In this document: one piece after another, positions 6,527 through 13,211 of the stretch | Position numbering within the stretch: position 1 is the first letter of the stretch | Layout of the letters: every line of letters begins with the position of its first letter | Source of the DNA: a virus | Strand: one strand, 5' to 3' | Virus record (IMG/VR): IMGVR_UViG_3300038470_000084 | Span: 1-23,430 of that record | Length of the DNA: 23,430 nucleotides | Notes under the pieces: generated by a model | Told to the model about the DNA's origin: nothing | Database searches by the model: none | The model's input: the letters and a program-made list of their open reading frames with translations, nothing else | Made by a program: the position numbers and the translations under genes

Positions 6527-6918
6527 CCGCTAGCGTCGCGCAGCTGACCATGCAGGCCGTGCAACGAAATTCGCATCCTGGCGTCAGTCTGATTGCTCGT
6601 TCGCTCAATTCACCGCTACCCGAATGTTCGCCATATGTTCTATTCTATGGGCTAGGTAAGGTGCTGTAGGAAAGAGGGAAATGTGTCGGCAGGATTTTTC
6701 CTGTGCAACATCAACCCTGAAGTGGGCAGTGCGCGAAGATTTGAGCGGCAGCTGATCTAAATCATGGGCAGTCCTGTGACATTGGTGAGTGTCAAGGTTG
6801 CGGTCTCCCTGAACCCACTTGCTTTCGGTCTGAAACCGTCAGTAGATGGTGTTCGAACTGTCATATTTTGGCGGCATGTCGCGCTATGGAGCGCGACATG
6901 CCGGACTTTAAAGGTGTC
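6527..6918. other. Gene-poor stretch between repressor and accessory block
   Basis: I see no convincing gene in these 392 bases. Two tiny plus-strand ORFs are present: 39 codons from about 6552, and 24 codons from 6681 after a good AGGAAAGAGGGA site; neither resembles a known protein. The only clear structure is the hairpin near the right end. Confidence 0.5.
6872..6903. terminator. Strong 13-bp hairpin, probable terminator of the DUF6232-like gene
   Basis: CGGCATGTCGCGC (6872-6884) and GCGCGACATGCCG (6891-6903) pair perfectly around the loop TATGGA. The hairpin begins 16 bases beyond the stop of the leftward gene at 6919. On the minus strand it is followed by CCAAAATATG, without a T-run, so it is not a classic intrinsic terminator; it may still terminate or protect the 3' end. 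Confidence 0.5.
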
Positions 6919-7302
6919 TTAGGCCGCGACCATCGCGGATTCGATCTTTCGGCGAAGATCATCAATCATCTCGCCATCACGAGAGGTGATGGCCTGCGCC
7001 TCAGAAGATGAGGTCATCAAGAAGAGCTGATACTCAATTATCTTGGACTTGAGCCACAACCTGTAGGCGACGAAGCCAAAAATGGCGGCGACGATCAGTG
7101 AGGTGAAGCCGCCCGAACTTTCTCCAGAGCCTAAAAGCGTCCCCAGCCCAGACATCCCGAAAATGAATGCCAGAACCCCAAACATGAACATACCGGCTTG
7201 TCCATGCGGCTTCCGCTCCCGGACCTCTACAGTGTTAATTTTATTGATCGCGTAGCTCTTCGATCCGAACCGTGCGAAATCCTTGTCAACGGTGACGTTC
7301 AT
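6919..7302 (-). CDS. DUF6232-like small membrane protein
   Basis: A 127-aa protein with a short beta-rich N-terminus (DKDFARFGSKSYAINKINTV, then EVRERKP), two membrane helices (about 37-58, GMFMFGVLAFIFGMSG; about 68-88, SLIVAAIFGFVAYRLWL) and a helical C-terminal tail. The order YAINKIN-x-VEVRE, two TMs, then a polar tail resembles DUF6232 membrane proteins of unknown function. I took the ATG at 7302, with GGGGGGAACG upstream, over an in-frame TTG at 7314. It stands alone, with 252 bases before it and a strong hairpin after it, so it is probably an independently expressed lysogenic-conversion gene. Confidence 0.68.
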   Translation of the reverse strand: MNVTVDKDFARFGSKSYAINKINTVEVRERKPHGQAGMFMFGVLAFIFGMSGLGTLLGSGESSGGFTSLIVAAIFGFVAYRLWLKSKIIEYQLFLMTSSSEAQAITSRDGEMIDDLRRKIESAMVAA

Positions 7303-7554
7303 CGTTCCCCCCAAATTGCGTCCATAGTTTGCCCAGCCGCAGAATTTGCAAATGCATTACTAATAGTAAAGGATTTTGAAATTGGCTGGGGTACAAGCTG
7401 CGGTTTGAAAAGTTCAAATCGCGATCGTAATAGTGCTCGGTGTCCTGGCTGATCGGAGCGATCTTCGCGGCCCGCCTGCGGTTGATCGGGGCACACCACT
7501 TCTCGCATAAATCGACGCTATTTGGCTGATGAGATGCCCATGACGTCATAGTCC

Positions 7555-7782
7555 CTATGATTTCGCCAATGGTGTGCACAAGTGCATTCTTAATGGCCTC
7601 GACACATCGATCGAGGTGGTAGAGGCCGTTGTCGGCGCCCCGCCGGTGGCGTCGGTCTGGCTTTGGCCATTAGGTGCCTGACAGGTTTCAAACGCTTCGC
7701 CCGTGAAAGCGGACCTTTCAAACGTCAATGAGTCAACCACTCCGGCGAATATGGGCACCTGAAAAACATATCGCATGATCAT
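7555..7782 (-). CDS. Fourth ORF of the overlapping cassette, hypothetical
   Basis: A 75-aa ORF starting MIMRYVFQVPIFAGVVDSLT. Its ATG overlaps the stop of the preceding cassette gene as ATGA, the same arrangement as the other junctions, which is the main reason to accept it. The C-terminal half is rich in Thr, Ser, Ala and Gly and looks unstructured; a short hydrophobic segment lies near residues 6-16. No family is recognised. An upstream extension in the same frame (to 7842) would overlap the previous gene by 64 bases and is rejected. It may be a non-functional overrun. Confidence 0.4.
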   Translation of the reverse strand: MIMRYVFQVPIFAGVVDSLTFERSAFTGEAFETCQAPNGQSQTDATGGAPTTASTTSIDVSRPLRMHLCTPLAKS

Positions 7783-8327
7783 GCATCGGGAGGCGTTATA
7801 CCAAATGGCGGCGCATAGAGCCCATAAAGACGATGAAGCCAATGCTCACGCAATGACATATTCCAATGGCGCGCGCGCCGTGGCCGGATCCAAACCACGC
7901 CGCCGCGAAACGGCACCTCGAGACCGACCTTAAGATAAGCGGCGGCACGATGGCGACGCGGAGTGGCGACGCACCAATGCTCACTGTCGATGTCCCATGA
8001 GACCGTGGCGCGTGCAGCAAGCACGGTCAGGGGCGGGTCATGGTCTTCCATGTCGGTCGCATAATTGAGCAACAGCGGCAGAGCAGGCGTCGCGATGAAC
8101 CAAGCCGGACCGATGTATCGGAATGTGAGCGCCAGATCAGAGCGGTTGGTAATGGTGAAGCGATGCCAGGATTCTTGGGCGTTGTTGCCTTCGCCATAAT
8201 CGATGGAGATGCGCAGCCGTCGTCGCCACTGCGCGGTCAGGAACGTATAGAATCCCGTCAGCCCCCCGATCAAACCGACCCAGCCGCCCGCATCTTTCAC
8301 CGTCGCGGCAATCCCGGCCCAGTTCAT
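7779..8327 (-). CDS. Membrane-anchored hypothetical protein with beta-rich domain
   Basis: A 182-aa protein with one N-terminal TM helix (about 14-31, GGWVGLIGGLTGFYTFLTA) followed by RRRLR, so the C-terminal domain should be cytoplasmic. That domain reads as a beta-sandwich: RISIDYGEG, WHRFTITNRSDLALTFRYIG, then repeated strand-like segments. The FTITNRSDLALTFRYIG pattern recalls Ig-like/fibronectin-type strands in uncharacterised membrane proteins. The ATG overlaps the previous stop by one base (TGATG); a GTG three bases earlier would give a GTGA overlap. It is part of the leftward cassette 9249-7555. Function is unknown; a structural or sensing role at the membrane is inference. Confidence 0.6.
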   Translation of the reverse strand: MNWAGIAATVKDAGGWVGLIGGLTGFYTFLTAQWRRRLRISIDYGEGNNAQESWHRFTITNRSDLALTFRYIGPAWFIATPALPLLLNYATDMEDHDPPLTVLAARATVSWDIDSEHWCVATPRRHRAAAYLKVGLEVPFRGGVVWIRPRRARHWNMSLREHWLHRLYGLYAPPFGITPPDA

Positions 8328-8770
8328 CACCAGACATACCCGGCGGCTTGCAATGTAAAGCCAAGTAGGATGAGGACCAAACCGCCATAGGTAACACGCA
8401 GCGACATACGAGCCGTCTGCTCGTCGCTCTCAACCGTAGCCGCCATCATCCGGGCGACGGTGCCCACATGGTCCGCGAGACCGTTGATCCCGTCTTTGAC
8501 CTCTTCTAGACTGCGCTCCGCAGCGTCATGGTCGAAGGTGCCTGCGCTGGGGAGGAATTGACCGTCGTCGCGGTAATATTCCCGGAAGTCACCTGAGATC
8601 GACTTCAGAAAGCGCTCCATTCCGCCTGCGCCCGCTACCACCTCGGTCAGCGCTGATAGACGGTCCGACGCATCGCTTCGTAATTTTCGCTGGACCCGGA
8701 CGAGATCGGCGCCAAGCATCATCACGCCGACGAAATCGAGCACCAACCCGCTCACGCTCAGCGCGATCAT
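8327..8770 (-). CDS. Two-TM hypothetical protein of the accessory cassette
   Basis: A 147-aa protein with a TM helix at each end (about 4-22, LSVSGLVLDFVGVMMLGADL; about 124-145, RVTYGGLVLILLGFTLQAAG). The soluble middle is helical and charged (VRVQRKLRSDASDRLSALTE; ERSLEEVKDGINGLADHVGT). Hairpin topology would place the middle on one side, probably the cytoplasm given RVQRKLR after TM1. Its ATG overlaps the upstream stop as ATGA, and its stop overlaps the next gene's start. I do not recognise the family. It could form a complex with its two neighbours, since coupled translation often marks subunits. Confidence 0.62.
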   Translation of the reverse strand: MIALSVSGLVLDFVGVMMLGADLVRVQRKLRSDASDRLSALTEVVAGAGGMERFLKSISGDFREYYRDDGQFLPSAGTFDHDAAERSLEEVKDGINGLADHVGTVARMMAATVESDEQTARMSLRVTYGGLVLILLGFTLQAAGYVW

Positions 8771-9249
8771 TCTACAGGATTCCGAGACAACCTATTGATG
8801 ATGCGACCTGGTCCTATCCGCCAGATGCGTTTGATCGTCCACCCCTTCGTCACCTCCCATTCCCGTTTGAGGACGGCACGGGACAACCTCATGGCGATCG
8901 CCAAATTCTCCTGCTCTGCGTCATCGAGAAGAGAATGGAGGATGTTCGCAAGATCCGTGTGCTGGGGCTCGCCGGCATTCAACCGCAAGAGAATCTGGCG
9001 ATACTCTTTCTCCGCGATTTGCTGCGCCTCCTTCAGGGCCGACGGGCCATTGGTGTCCTTCCGAGACCGCGCCGCCGCGAGGCGGTCGATCAAGTAGAAA
9101 TAGTCAGAAAGGTGATCGCGGAGCGCGTTGATCCACGCTTGCCGATGCCCGGCGATCGCAACAGCCTTATTCATTCGGGCGCTCACGACCGCAGCGATAA
9201 CCGTGCCGATGCCGATCCCGGCAACCAAAGTCATCCATGGCGGACTCAT
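8767..9249 (-). CDS. One-TM hypothetical protein, first gene of the accessory cassette
   Basis: A 160-aa protein. MSPPWMTLVAGIGIGTVIAA forms an N-terminal TM helix; then HRQAWINALRDHLSDYFYLI and further charged helices follow to the C-terminus, where a basic stretch (KRIWRIGPGRIINRL) could touch membrane or nucleic acid. The HRQ-x-WIN-x-LRD pattern after one TM is found in uncharacterised bacterial membrane proteins; I know no function. The start at 9249, preceded by GGAAGCCTC, is chosen over the longer open frame to 9462, whose extra 71 residues have no visible start signal. It is the promoter-proximal gene, facing the divergent gene at 9589 across 339 bases. Confidence 0.65.
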   Translation of the reverse strand: MSPPWMTLVAGIGIGTVIAAVVSARMNKAVAIAGHRQAWINALRDHLSDYFYLIDRLAAARSRKDTNGPSALKEAQQIAEKEYRQILLRLNAGEPQHTDLANILHSLLDDAEQENLAIAMRLSRAVLKREWEVTKGWTIKRIWRIGPGRIINRLSRNPVE

Positions 9250-9588
9250 GAGGCTTCCATTCGGCACGACAAGTCCCTCGCGATTGAAATCGCCATCAAG
9301 GGTAAATAGTACACACCTTATTGTCGATCGGCAAAAGCAGATCGACGTCGCAGGCATGCTATTGATTGCAGACAAATTGAATATTTGGTCTTTTATTGAG
9401 TCACCGCTCTCGCGATGGACGACCTCAAGCTGCGAGCTCGCACAGAGCGCTTGGGCGATCACAAAGGGATTGGCCGATTTCAGTCTGTCTGCTTACCGGC
9501 GGGTAAAAGGGAATAGTTGCCGTCCGCTAGCACTGTTTTTCTTGGCGAAGGAACCCTGTCCAAGTAGCATTCGGGTTTGGGGGATTGC
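9250..9588. promoter_or_regulatory. Divergent intergenic region between the cassette and the plus-strand gene
   Basis: This 339-base gap lies between two genes transcribed away from each other, so it must supply promoters for both unless they are silent. The part from about 9350 to 9400 is notably AT-rich. I could not assign -35/-10 pairs with confidence and see no strong dyad. A 33-codon ORF at about 9415 lacks a ribosome site and is not accepted. Confidence 0.4.
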
Positions 9589-10665
9589 ATGGCTAACATA
9601 GGCAAAAATTGGAACGGTCACATTTTCGGGACAAACACGGGTAACGTCGCTGTCTCGCTTGAAGGAGAGGACTCAGCCCTTTCCGGGCTGGTCCGACTAA
9701 GCGACACGCAGCATGGCGTCATCGTCTATGAAGTCTTTGGCAGCTTTGAAGCGGGAAGCCTGAACCTAACCGGTAAGCCGCAAGGGGAAGTTCCCGAAGG
9801 AGTCGTCGTTGGGGAGTTGACGGTTACCGGAGCGCTCACCCCAGAGGGCAGGATCGATGGCGAATGGTCAACCACGATCGGCACGGGTGGCACCTACCAG
9901 CTTTGGCCTCATGCATATGAAATTCGCCCGACAAACCCCGGCGCCATTCCCGAGCAAATGAACACATCTACCCGGTCAATGGGAGCAATCCGCCTTTATG
10001 CAGATGATGTGCGGAGCCTCATCGCTCAACTCGTGAAAGATTTCTCGCAGAAGCGAGCTGTTGTTACATTCAACGATAGAGGCAACGAGAAGAACATTTA
10101 TGCCGACGAGTTTGAATCTATTTTGGATGATCTTCCCGAATTACGCTACCTAAAGATTTCTGTCCAAGAGCCAGAAATGTATGGGCTTAACCGAAACGCA
10201 ATGATCGAATTGACCGCGTGGGGCGAAAACACGATCAGAGTTCAAAGTGTTCAAGAGGCCTGGGCGATAGGAAAGGCGGAAGCCCTTTCTCGGCATGTGC
10301 TCGGATTTCAGCGGAAACTTGCCACACAATTCCGAAAGTTCGGATTGACGGTCAATGTGATGATTACTGTTGCTGCGCTAGCTGCGTTACCGGGATTGCC
10401 AACATTTTGGCAACGATTAACGTTCGGGGCTAGCACATTTGTCGTCCAATCCCTTATTGCCTACTTCCATCGCCAGTATGTGCCAAACTTCATGTTGTTT
10501 CCCACCAAACGAAAATCCAGTTGGCTTGGAAAGCTGGGGCCAGGTGTAGTGTCATGGGCTATTACGATAATAGGAGGAGTTTTCGCCGCCGTTATCTACG
10601 GCTTGCTCAAGGGTGAATTAGACGGCTCACCGCTGGCGACAGCGCTTCGTGGACTCTTCCCGTGA
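9589..10665 (+). CDS. Three-TM protein with beta-rich N-terminal domain, candidate membrane effector
   Basis: A 358-aa protein. Residues about 1-105 are glycine-rich and strand-like (NWNGHIFGTNTGNVAVSLEG; later IDGEWSTTIGTGGTYQLWPH), with the look of a beta-barrel or beta-sandwich. Residues about 125-240 form a mixed alpha/beta domain (IRLYADDVRSLIAQLVKDFS; RYLKISVQEPEMYGLNRNAM). Three TM segments follow, near 255-272, 277-297 and 318-341. GGGGGAT just before the ATG supports this start over the in-frame TTG at 9577. Base composition is unlike the phage core: 25 of 60 bases at 10081-10140 are G/C. It faces away from the membrane cassette and converges on the nuclease-like gene. No family is recognised; a soluble sensor joined to a membrane domain is the plain reading. 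Confidence 0.72.
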   Translation: MANIGKNWNGHIFGTNTGNVAVSLEGEDSALSGLVRLSDTQHGVIVYEVFGSFEAGSLNLTGKPQGEVPEGVVVGELTVTGALTPEGRIDGEWSTTIGTGGTYQLWPHAYEIRPTNPGAIPEQMNTSTRSMGAIRLYADDVRSLIAQLVKDFSQKRAVVTFNDRGNEKNIYADEFESILDDLPELRYLKISVQEPEMYGLNRNAMIELTAWGENTIRVQSVQEAWAIGKAEALSRHVLGFQRKLATQFRKFGLTVNVMITVAALAALPGLPTFWQRLTFGASTFVVQSLIAYFHRQYVPNFMLFPTKRKSSWLGKLGPGVVSWAITIIGGVFAAVIYGLLKGELDGSPLATALRGLFP

Positions 10666-10735
10666 TTGGCTAAGGGTAGACTTCACAATTCTCTAAAACC
10701 GAAATCGTACGCTTAGGGTGAGCTTGGAACCAGCG

Positions 10736-12148
10736 CTATTGTCCTAGACCTAGCGAATCCTGTACGAACAGCACCTCGGAATCGCTGCGAAGCCAACGAT
10801 GCTCGCCAAACATATAATTTCGTATCTGTGCGACATCGACCTGCTGGAACGGGCCGTAAGTGTCCATCATCATCGCGCGGGAGGATTCCAAACCCTCTCG
10901 CTGGCTGTCCGCGATCCAAGACAATGATACGAACTCGTACGCGACACGCGCGACCAATTGCTGAGCGATGCCAACTACGCCGCCAGCGTCGTGAACGCAA
11001 TGAAGAGCATAGTCGCTCCCTGGGTCGAAATCAATTTGCCAACCCGGCGTGGCCATCTGCCTGCATAGTTCGTCCATGCTCGCCGCGACGATGATAAAGA
11101 TGTTGCCCTCGATAAAATCTAAGAGGTGCTGGGGCTCGCGAATTGTGAGGATGAAAGGCGTGTAGGGCGCCCACGCAAAGTCGTTCTTGTCGCCGTTCAG
11201 AGTCCAGAACACGCTCCGCTCGTGAGCGAGCGTCTCAAAGATCGCTGAGTAGTCGGGCCGCCCGCCAGCAATTACCGCGTAAGCAATGCCTGGTTCCGGC
11301 CGAGAAATCGCAAACCCTGTCCTTTTAGCTTCAGCGATGCACTCATTCAGCGCTGCGACATTGTTGCGCTCAGGGACGGTGACCACTTGCCGCTTCGTCT
11401 CGCCAGGCGCTCCCCTGTAGCCGACCGCACGATCAGTCTCCAAGAAGCTGCGCAGCTTCTCCATCTTCTCGGCCTGCCGCTTACCTCGACCGCTTTGCTT
11501 CGGGCTGCTTTTCACCTCGATAGGCACGGGATCGGAAGCACCGAGCAAACACACATCGCCATAGCGGATGGTGTTAGTAATGTCGGAAAGGACTGCTGGC
11601 ACCTTATGCTCCAGGGCACTGAATAGGCACTTCAGCTCGCCAACTAACCCCTCTTTGCCACGGATCATCCCGGCATCACGTTTTATGGCGAAGCGGTCGG
11701 TGTCATAGTAGGCATGCTTGATTGCGAACTTGTCGAGATAGAGGAACGCGAGCGCGTCCCCGCAGCATTTCCAGATGTAAATCTGCTTGGCGTATCGGTC
11801 GATGAATCCCGCCTTGCGCTTGATCTTTATTCTGAGCGCCTTGCTGATTTCCTTCGATCCCCGACCTGTTTTCAACTGCCGGTACAGTTCCTTGTGCGCA
11901 AGGCGATGCTCGTCCTGCTTTCGCTCTGCGCGAATGATCTCCTTCAAGACGAGGAGGTTTAGGGCTTTGACCGAAGCAAAATCATCCTGATCCGCTTCAA
12001 TCGTGCGGAGCAGCCGTACCATTTCAAAAAACCGCTGCTGTCGCCGACCCACCATCATTAGCGTTGTACCGACCTCCGCGTAAATCGGCATATCGTTATC
12101 CCAAACATCACCAAATGGCGATCGCGGAGGCGGCAGCCCGACCTTCAT
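10736..12148 (-). CDS. Putative PD-(D/E)XK-superfamily nuclease protein
   Basis: A 470-aa protein. Residues about 20-165 are helical and very basic (LRIKIKRKAGFIDRYAKQIY). At 170-225 there is a pattern fitting a restriction-endonuclease-like active site: KEGLVGELK (Glu171), RYGDVCLLG (Asp198), PIEVKSS (Glu211, Lys213) and then KRQAEKMEKLRSF with Gln225. This E, D, ExK, Q order suggests metal-dependent DNA or RNA cleavage. The C-terminal half (230-470) is unassigned and may bind target or partner. The start at 12148 avoids overlap with gene D, which ends 55 bases upstream; ATG 12091, after GGGA, is the alternative, and the open frame to 12250 is rejected. It may be read from the late operon or its own promoter. 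The nuclease call rests on motif spacing by eye. Confidence 0.65.
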   Translation of the reverse strand: MKVGLPPPRSPFGDVWDNDMPIYAEVGTTLMMVGRRQQRFFEMVRLLRTIEADQDDFASVKALNLLVLKEIIRAERKQDEHRLAHKELYRQLKTGRGSKEISKALRIKIKRKAGFIDRYAKQIYIWKCCGDALAFLYLDKFAIKHAYYDTDRFAIKRDAGMIRGKEGLVGELKCLFSALEHKVPAVLSDITNTIRYGDVCLLGASDPVPIEVKSSPKQSGRGKRQAEKMEKLRSFLETDRAVGYRGAPGETKRQVVTVPERNNVAALNECIAEAKRTGFAISRPEPGIAYAVIAGGRPDYSAIFETLAHERSVFWTLNGDKNDFAWAPYTPFILTIREPQHLLDFIEGNIFIIVAASMDELCRQMATPGWQIDFDPGSDYALHCVHDAGGVVGIAQQLVARVAYEFVSLSWIADSQREGLESSRAMMMDTYGPFQQVDVAQIRNYMFGEHRWLRSDSEVLFVQDSLGLGQ

Positions 12149-12203
12149 TTGAATGTCCGCTTGCAACCACAGAAAAATCCCGGTCAAACGGCTTGGATGG
12201 GCG

Positions 12204-13211
12204 CTAAGTCGCCGTTTCCATCTTGAGCGCTGTCGTGAACCCGCTGCCATTGTCGAGGTTATGGCTCACTTCGTTGATTAGCCAGATGCCATCGATCCCC
12301 GCCTTGATACCGCTCACGCTGGCGCGTAGGTCGACATAGATATCGGCGCGGCCGAGCGCCAGGCGGATGTCCAGCGTGGCCGGCGCGCGCTTCAAGCGCG
12401 CCTGTTCAGCGGTTGCCGCGCGACGCGCTGACGCTTCGTCCGCAAAAGTCTTGCGGAGCCGCTTGGAGCCGTCCTTCTCGCCCACTGTGACCGTCTGGCG
12501 CTTCGCTGCCTTGCGATCGTGCCAGCTGGCGGTCACGCCGGCCTGGCCATCGCGCTTTTGCCGTTGCCAATTGTGGCCGTCGCCGGCACTGCGACGGATG
12601 GTCAGGGTGGGCAATGCGGTGCCGCTGGTGGTGGTGCCGGCGCCCTTGCGCGCGAAGATCAGCTTGCCGTCCTTGATGGTCGCAACGGCGTCATTTTCGC
12701 GCCCCAGGCGGCGCAGGAACGCGATATCGCTCTGCCGGCTCTGACTGACGGTCGGCAGCGCGATCGACGCCAGATCGGCTGCTATGCGCGGCCTCAGGCC
12801 ATTGCGCCCGGCAACCTCCGTTAACACCGCGCCCAAAGTGGTATTTTGCCAGCTCTGTTCCCGGCGGTTACGGATGTGGCTGGTGAAGTCGGCGGCGCGG
12901 GCGCGAATGCGGACCTGATCGGGCGGGCCGCTATGACTGACATCGTCCACCTTGAACGTGCCCTTGTCGATCAGGCCTGGCGTTACGTCACGGCCTTGTT
13001 TCCAGCCCAGGGCAAGGCGCAGCGTTGCACCCTCCGATGGGAGGGCCAGACCGCCATCGCTATCGTCCAACACGATATCCAGCTGGTCCGCCTCATCCCC
13101 GCGCTTTTCCGACAGGGTGAGCGACACCAGGCGCGGGCGCAGCTTGCCGGTCAAATCGGTGTCGCCCAGCGTGACGCGGAAATCGGGGATATTGGCGATG
13201 CGATCCGTCAT
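12204..13211 (-). CDS. D: Tail hub protein, late control gene D
   Basis: A 335-aa protein matching P2 gpD, the baseplate hub between tube and spike. It starts PDFRVTLGDTDLTGKLRPRL, has the conserved SEKRGDEADQLDIVLDDSD block at about 33-51, LPSEGATLRLALGW at about 56-70 and a C-terminal WLINEVSHNLDNGSGFTTAL typical of the family. The ATG overlaps the gpU stop as ATGA. It is the last gene of the recognisable tail operon. In P2, ogr would follow; here an accessory gene follows. Confidence 0.92.
   Translation of the reverse strand: MTDRIANIPDFRVTLGDTDLTGKLRPRLVSLTLSEKRGDEADQLDIVLDDSDGGLALPSEGATLRLALGWKQGRDVTPGLIDKGTFKVDDVSHSGPPDQVRIRARAADFTSHIRNRREQSWQNTTLGAVLTEVAGRNGLRPRIAADLASIALPTVSQSRQSDIAFLRRLGRENDAVATIKDGKLIFARKGAGTTTSGTALPTLTIRRSAGDGHNWQRQKRDGQAGVTASWHDRKAAKRQTVTVGEKDGSKRLRKTFADEASARRAATAEQARLKRAPATLDIRLALGRADIYVDLRASVSGIKAGIDGIWLINEVSHNLDNGSGFTTALKMETAT

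Follow-up and report, generated by a model that had tools for sequence, protein, structure and literature searches.

A predicted PD-(D/E)XK nuclease carried as cargo by a P2-like prophage, a candidate for single-gene antiviral defence

What is the gene that follows gene D in this P2-like prophage, and could its product be a nuclease that defends the host? The gene lies in IMG/VR virus record IMGVR_UViG_3300038470_000084, positions 1 to 23,430; this whole stretch of 23,430 nucleotides is called the window below. A first-pass annotation had read ORF 10736-12148 as a 470-aa protein with the residues of a PD-(D/E)XK nuclease. The ORF does translate to 470 aa on the minus strand, and the frame is open up to 12250. 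Its four closest relatives are in bacterial genomes: L002 (89% identity), Sphingobium chungbukense (L003, 88%), Sphingomonas sp. TDK1 (L004, 87%) and Qipengyuania mesophila (L005, 82%). In L003, L004 and L005, stop codons interrupt the frame just 5' of the position equivalent to the ATG at 12058, and L002 has one in-frame stop in the stretch covering the region 5' of this ATG. Since all four have in-frame stops upstream, the start is at 12058 and the protein has 440 aa; the 470-aa reading, with its earlier start, is 30 codons too long and is ruled out by these stops. The gene itself is real, since dN/dS is 0.12-0.19, showing purifying selection, in all 10 pairwise comparisons among the five closest sequences over 430 codons. 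Thus, the gene had been read correctly, but its length had not.

10736-12058, minus strand: candidate PD-(D/E)XK nuclease gene, 440 aa, from the corrected ATG at 12056-12058; dN/dS 0.12-0.19 with four relatives
12059-12135, minus strand: non-coding leader that moves with the gene; from here on the DNA is homologous to L002, L003 and L004

The 30 codons 5' of the ATG at 12058 are a non-coding leader, with partly conserved DNA. A near-palindrome can be seen by eye in this leader, with seven-base arms in L002 and one mismatch in the window, and is perhaps an operator. The N-terminal half of the protein is very basic, as had been remarked: residues 1-220 contain 45 K+R versus 29 D+E, and residues 221-440 contain 17 versus 28.

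The core of PD-(D/E)XK enzymes has the order helix-strand-strand-strand-helix-strand. The residues picked out at first, E171, D198, E211, K213 and Q225, become E141, D168, E181, K183 and Q195 in the 440-aa protein, and their codons are as follows.

11636-11638, minus strand: E141 (formerly E171), in the first helix of the predicted nuclease core; invariant in 14/14 rows, model helix 138-150
11555-11557, minus strand: D168 (formerly D198), just before the second core strand; invariant in 14/14 rows, model strand 169-171
11510-11518, minus strand: E181-V182-K183 (formerly E211-V-K213), just after the third core strand; E and K in 14/14 rows, model strand 178-180
11474-11476, minus strand: Q195 (formerly Q225), in the following helix; invariant in 14/14 rows, model helix 190-208

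All five are unchanged in 9/9 rows, 14/14 rows and 15/15 domain rows, and every aligned relative keeps them, down to 24% identity, including L015 (50%), L009 (35%), L007 and L016; L008 and L010, which are disrupted or partial, were left out of the alignments. No aligned sequence lacks the Glu, Asp, Glu-x-Lys and Gln, so the conserved acidic residue, D and (D/E)xK of a PD-(D/E)XK motif occur in the right order, as had been claimed. The 14 rows represent fewer than 14 independent lineages, since L023-L025 nearly duplicate one another and the five rows from sphingomonads are much alike. In this alignment E141, D159, T161, R165, G167, D168, E181, K183, S185, R191 and Q195 are all invariant, and altogether 4 of 29 Glu, 3 of 28 Asp, 4 of 26 Lys and 1 of 20 Gln are. 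With so few such residues invariant, it is improbable that five invariant ones were named by chance, although the rows are related and these odds are not a formal p-value.

A structure was predicted with AlphaFold2 on the 14-row alignment (mean pLDDT 77.5, pTM 0.78); the model from the single sequence was poor (pLDDT 34). By DSSP, the model has helix 138-150, strands 155-157, 169-171 and 178-180, helix 190-208, and strands 210-212 and 220-222. The predicted order is that of the PD-(D/E)XK core; the motif falls at helix 1 and at strands 2 and 3, and the named residues are in the positions expected for this fold. The confidence of this core is moderate, with block pLDDT of 59-90 and just 59-69 for residues 181-220. 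Two further domains are predicted:

11711-12049, minus strand: N-terminal all-helical domain, residues 4-116, with long helices 27-64 and 69-107; AlphaFold2, block pLDDT 76-96 (residues 1-110)
10829-11368, minus strand: C-terminal alpha/beta domain of no recognised family, about residues 231-410; AlphaFold2, no Pfam match

We conclude from the motif and the modelled topology that the protein is likely to be a PD-(D/E)XK nuclease.

To which family does it belong? No family model of Pfam, NCBIfam or PADLOC matches the window protein. Its sole family match is PHROG 14906 (E 2.8e-54, residues 50-414 of the 470-aa reading), a likeness over nearly the full length, and PHROGs assigns this family no function. 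Searches of PDB sequences gave nothing convincing. Single domain rows matched SmaI (E 0.016, 1 of 15 rows) and Hjc (best E 0.088, 2 of 15 rows), and these matches stand among equally weak ones to unrelated families. In hhalign comparisons of the domain alignment with reference profiles for YraN (23 of 30 fetched loci), Mrr (17 of 30) and SduA (6 of 6), the probabilities were 1.4%, 0.0% and 1.0%; 15 shuffled profiles gave 0.1-1.2% and four unrelated profiles 0.1-0.2%. Filing the protein under YraN, Mrr or SduA was rejected, as none is clearly above the shuffled controls. Foldseek found no match at E <= 0.001 in PDB or BFVD, and the VIA matches cover mainly residues 18-131; the results of both are dominated by the N-terminal helices or are insignificant. 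No chain described as a restriction enzyme is among the 50 Foldseek matches listed or the VIA matches listed, a result of little weight because the N-terminal helices fill these lists. Thus, the expected similarity to PD-(D/E)XK profiles was not significant in the profile searches or in hhalign against YraN, Mrr and SduA. Because there is no significant match to known PD-(D/E)XK families, membership of the fold rests on motif and topology.

Shedu (SduA, DUF4263) is a single-gene defence protein with a PD-(D/E)XK core, and the window family resembles it in having a single gene and a predicted core of this kind; an SduA gene also adjoins the relative in L003. However, the window protein has its predicted core mid-chain and SduA has it at the C-terminus, Pfam and PADLOC find no SduA/DUF4263 domain, and hhalign is at the 1.0% given above. 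Mrr-type restriction endonucleases combine a PD-(D/E)XK core with an accessory domain, as the window protein is predicted to do, but Mrr_cat is absent from the Pfam matches of every row, and the hhalign value is 0.0%. Could the protein nevertheless be a type IV-like, modification-dependent restriction enzyme, in which the N- or C-terminal domain reads a modified phage base and the core cuts, so that no partner methylase is needed? The gene stands singly with no constant partner, and a Mrr_cat protein adjoins the member in L015, as this alternative would have it. Pfam detects no known modified-base reader domain, however, and the conserved all-helical N-terminal domain of the family is not usual for modification-dependent restriction enzymes. 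We regard this alternative as unlikely.

The gene moves as a single unit. When the window was aligned with the four loci L002-L005 (about 17 kb each, E <= 1e-5), only the nuclease gene region aligned, and the block common to the window and the sphingomonad loci runs from about 80 bp before the ATG to about the stop codon. Members are found in E. coli, on Rhizobium plasmids and in sphingomonads. The nine-row alignment as query recovered ten viral contigs, one of them 100% identical to the window, and no family match was found in 50,697 phage records. The gene is in at least 4 of 396 Sphingomonadales genomes; such counts are lower bounds because SduA_C was missed in genome G002, though the L003 protein of the same genome matches it. 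The gene appears to move between viral and bacterial defence sites. These data bear on whether it could be a DNA-processing enzyme of the phage itself, that is, a Holliday junction resolvase or a replication or packaging nuclease. PD-(D/E)XK resolvases exist, and the weak Hjc match would fit one. But a gene that is this rare and has no match in the phage records, that is interchangeable cargo of prophages, and that also has members outside prophages, next to defence genes, is very unlikely to serve the phage in this way. A literature search with the PHROG number and two E. coli protein accessions returned no paper, though the family may still be in print.

What are the neighbors of the relatives? 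On a Rhizobium leguminosarum plasmid (L009), the family gene is divergent to MkoA, which is followed by MkoB, GajA and GajB, so that it adjoins Mokosh and Gabija systems. In R. sullae (L008), an annotated AAA protein is at the corresponding place; the family gene there is split, with IS5 elements flanking it. The relative in L003 has an integrase, SIR2_2, a 219-aa protein and an LmuB-like SMC protein upstream, and SduA and FRG downstream. The SIR2_2, 219-aa and LmuB-like SMC genes stand in a row (L003:3102-7953) and resemble a Lamassu operon with a SIR2 effector. L002 has a type IIG-like methylase and a weak Mrr_cat_2 match as neighbors, and L015 the Mrr_cat protein. In Klebsiella (L007, a 5.4-Mb record labelled plasmid), PRTase-CE and NADAR are neighbors and the family gene is frameshifted; an FRG-DUF1508 gene is upstream of the member in L020, and a DUF2971 gene, a PDC-S31 candidate, is near the member in L022. 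Among the part of the neighbors scanned in L004, L005, L010, L016, L018, L019 and L026, no defence gene was identified. With no background rate or random-locus baseline computed, these neighbors are examples and not a test of enrichment.

L018:1-558 and L016:905-1537 hold related genes (29% identity, E 4e-19) just upstream of the family gene, with no Pfam family; the pair is possibly a two-gene variant. As a partner of the whole family this gene was rejected, because it is not constant. This matters for the idea that the protein acts on RNA or is a toxin-like gene that stabilises its element instead of defending the host. One of 14 rows weakly matches an anticodon-nuclease activator family (E 0.0073), as an RNase or toxin might. 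However, there is no constant antitoxin-like partner, only L016 and L018 having been seen with a common upstream gene, and the E/D/ExK motif is typical of DNA nucleases. Either role is therefore highly improbable.

In E. coli, 17 of 5426 genomes carry the family gene. Sixteen of them have an unbroken 3.5-kb block that extends through the portal gene; in the remaining one the block is interrupted and the match overlaps an IS3-like transposase. Annotation was read for two of these 17: there the gene, labelled hypothetical, stands between those for the replication endonuclease and the portal. WP_001704922.1 is one of the E. coli members. The gene upstream in E. coli, of 251 aa, was weighed as a possible partner and dropped. 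The members of L023-L025 are at the A-Q site of P2, and the member of L021, a diverged P2-like prophage, is also between A and Q, with an adjacent Ogr-like zinc-finger gene below the Pfam cut-off. Thus, members occupy this site in two diverged types of P2-like prophage. The member genes are AT-rich, with a G+C of 34% versus 50% for the locus in L023 and 35% versus 53% in L021. Many P2-like prophages that lack the family (e.g., H40-H47) match 57% of the query, including its first and last base; we read this pattern, though not from an alignment, as flanks in common with different cargo. In the portions of PMC9122126 and PMC9519451 available to us, the A-Q interval is described as an antiviral hotspot, which holds old and tin in P2, and no family member was recognised among the A-Q cargo there. 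The E. coli and L021 relatives are thus at the same site between A and the portal gene Q as P2 cargo such as old and tin (Rousset 2022, Vassallo 2022). Unlike this cargo, the copy in the window follows gene D.

The site in the window is bounded as follows.

12204-13211, minus strand: P2 gene D-like tail gene, the conserved edge of the variable site; phrog_52, E 9.3e-128
6705-12203, no strand assigned: variable cargo region, replaced in related prophages; blastn against L030-L034 and L036, left edge differing between relatives

The placement just after gene D holds, since the neighbor is the phrog_52 tail protein, and the site is variable, as the first-pass annotation had said. Six related prophages were compared (L030-L034, L036). 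In five of them, about 6 kb reaching to the end of D has 91-94% identity to the window; the sixth, L034, matches in one piece at 85% and in another at 92%. These matches end at window positions 12187-12232, at or near the stop of D, and the cargo differs beyond it. The family is therefore accessory cargo at variable sites between conserved phage genes, after D in the window and at A-Q in relatives. In 80 fetched gene-D loci, the ORFs starting within 3.5 kb after D form 171 clusters, some surely spurious, and in 30 loci the gap from D to a repressor-like gene, labelled by eye, is 932-3989 bp. We scanned 73 of 119 cargo ORFs of at least 200 aa, leaving out the near-identical copy of the window, recurring repressor-like ORFs and spurious-looking ones. 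The matches include cytosine and D12 methylases, AAA_15, TIR, Cap4 nuclease, GmrSD, KAP NTPase, DndB and HEPN. With such defence-type domains among the cargo, it is plausible that the site after D is a defence hotspot, although not every cargo ORF need be for defence and several of the matches also have other roles.

By eye, an AAA/OLD-like ATPase, a TIR-like protein and cytosine methylases are seen after D in L100:6010-7731, L105:6061-7284, L046 and L048; the scan of 73 ORFs detected the AAA/OLD-like, TIR-like and methylase domains in the set as a whole, without assignment ORF by ORF. In the window itself, a 362-aa cargo protein is encoded convergently with the nuclease gene (9577-10665, plus strand), with apparently hydrophobic C-terminal segments by eye. 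It has no family above the cut-off in Pfam, NCBIfam or PADLOC, and its only relative on a viral contig is in the near-identical copy of the window. Three more cargo genes at 7779-9462 (minus strand), of 183, 147 and 231 aa, have no PHROGs match.

What, then, is the likely function? A defence role of the family is probable, since its relatives lie in defence islands and in the P2 A-Q hotspot; the single-gene nuclease defence first suggested is thus supported by context. The nuclease and defence readings taken together also seem likely to us, and we favor a stand-alone defence protein of three domains, part of the prophage cargo, whose PD-(D/E)XK nuclease would cut DNA in a metal-dependent reaction on infection. 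In this mechanism, one chain would join a helical N-terminal domain for oligomerisation or sensing, the PD-(D/E)XK core, and the C-terminal alpha/beta domain. The protein would most likely be expressed in the lysogen from the gene's own leader and be kept inactive. Infection by another phage would then lead to cutting of DNA, of the invader or of both genomes, with metal-dependent cleavage through E141, D168, E181 and K183. The predicted role, judged from the context, is that the gene probably protects its host from rival viruses. The kind of system is known, a prophage-borne PD-(D/E)XK defence candidate; the family is one that carries no defence label in Pfam, NCBIfam, PADLOC or PHROGs.

More tentatively, it is quite possible that this is an undescribed, widespread family of single-protein defence systems, in which the N-terminal helical domain and the new C-terminal domain would regulate the firing of the nuclease on a phage signal. 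The gene with its leader, a unit of about 1.4 kb, would move among prophage hotspots, plasmids and chromosomal defence islands, and P2-like prophages of sphingomonads would have another defence hotspot, so far unrecorded, in the stretch from D to the repressor region. If this is true, 'hypothetical proteins' of E. coli, Rhizobium plasmids and sphingomonads would become a testable single-gene defence nuclease; with the E. coli members, phage plating on laboratory strains would be an easy and direct test. The P2-like prophages of sphingomonads would also be worth searching for more systems downstream of gene D.
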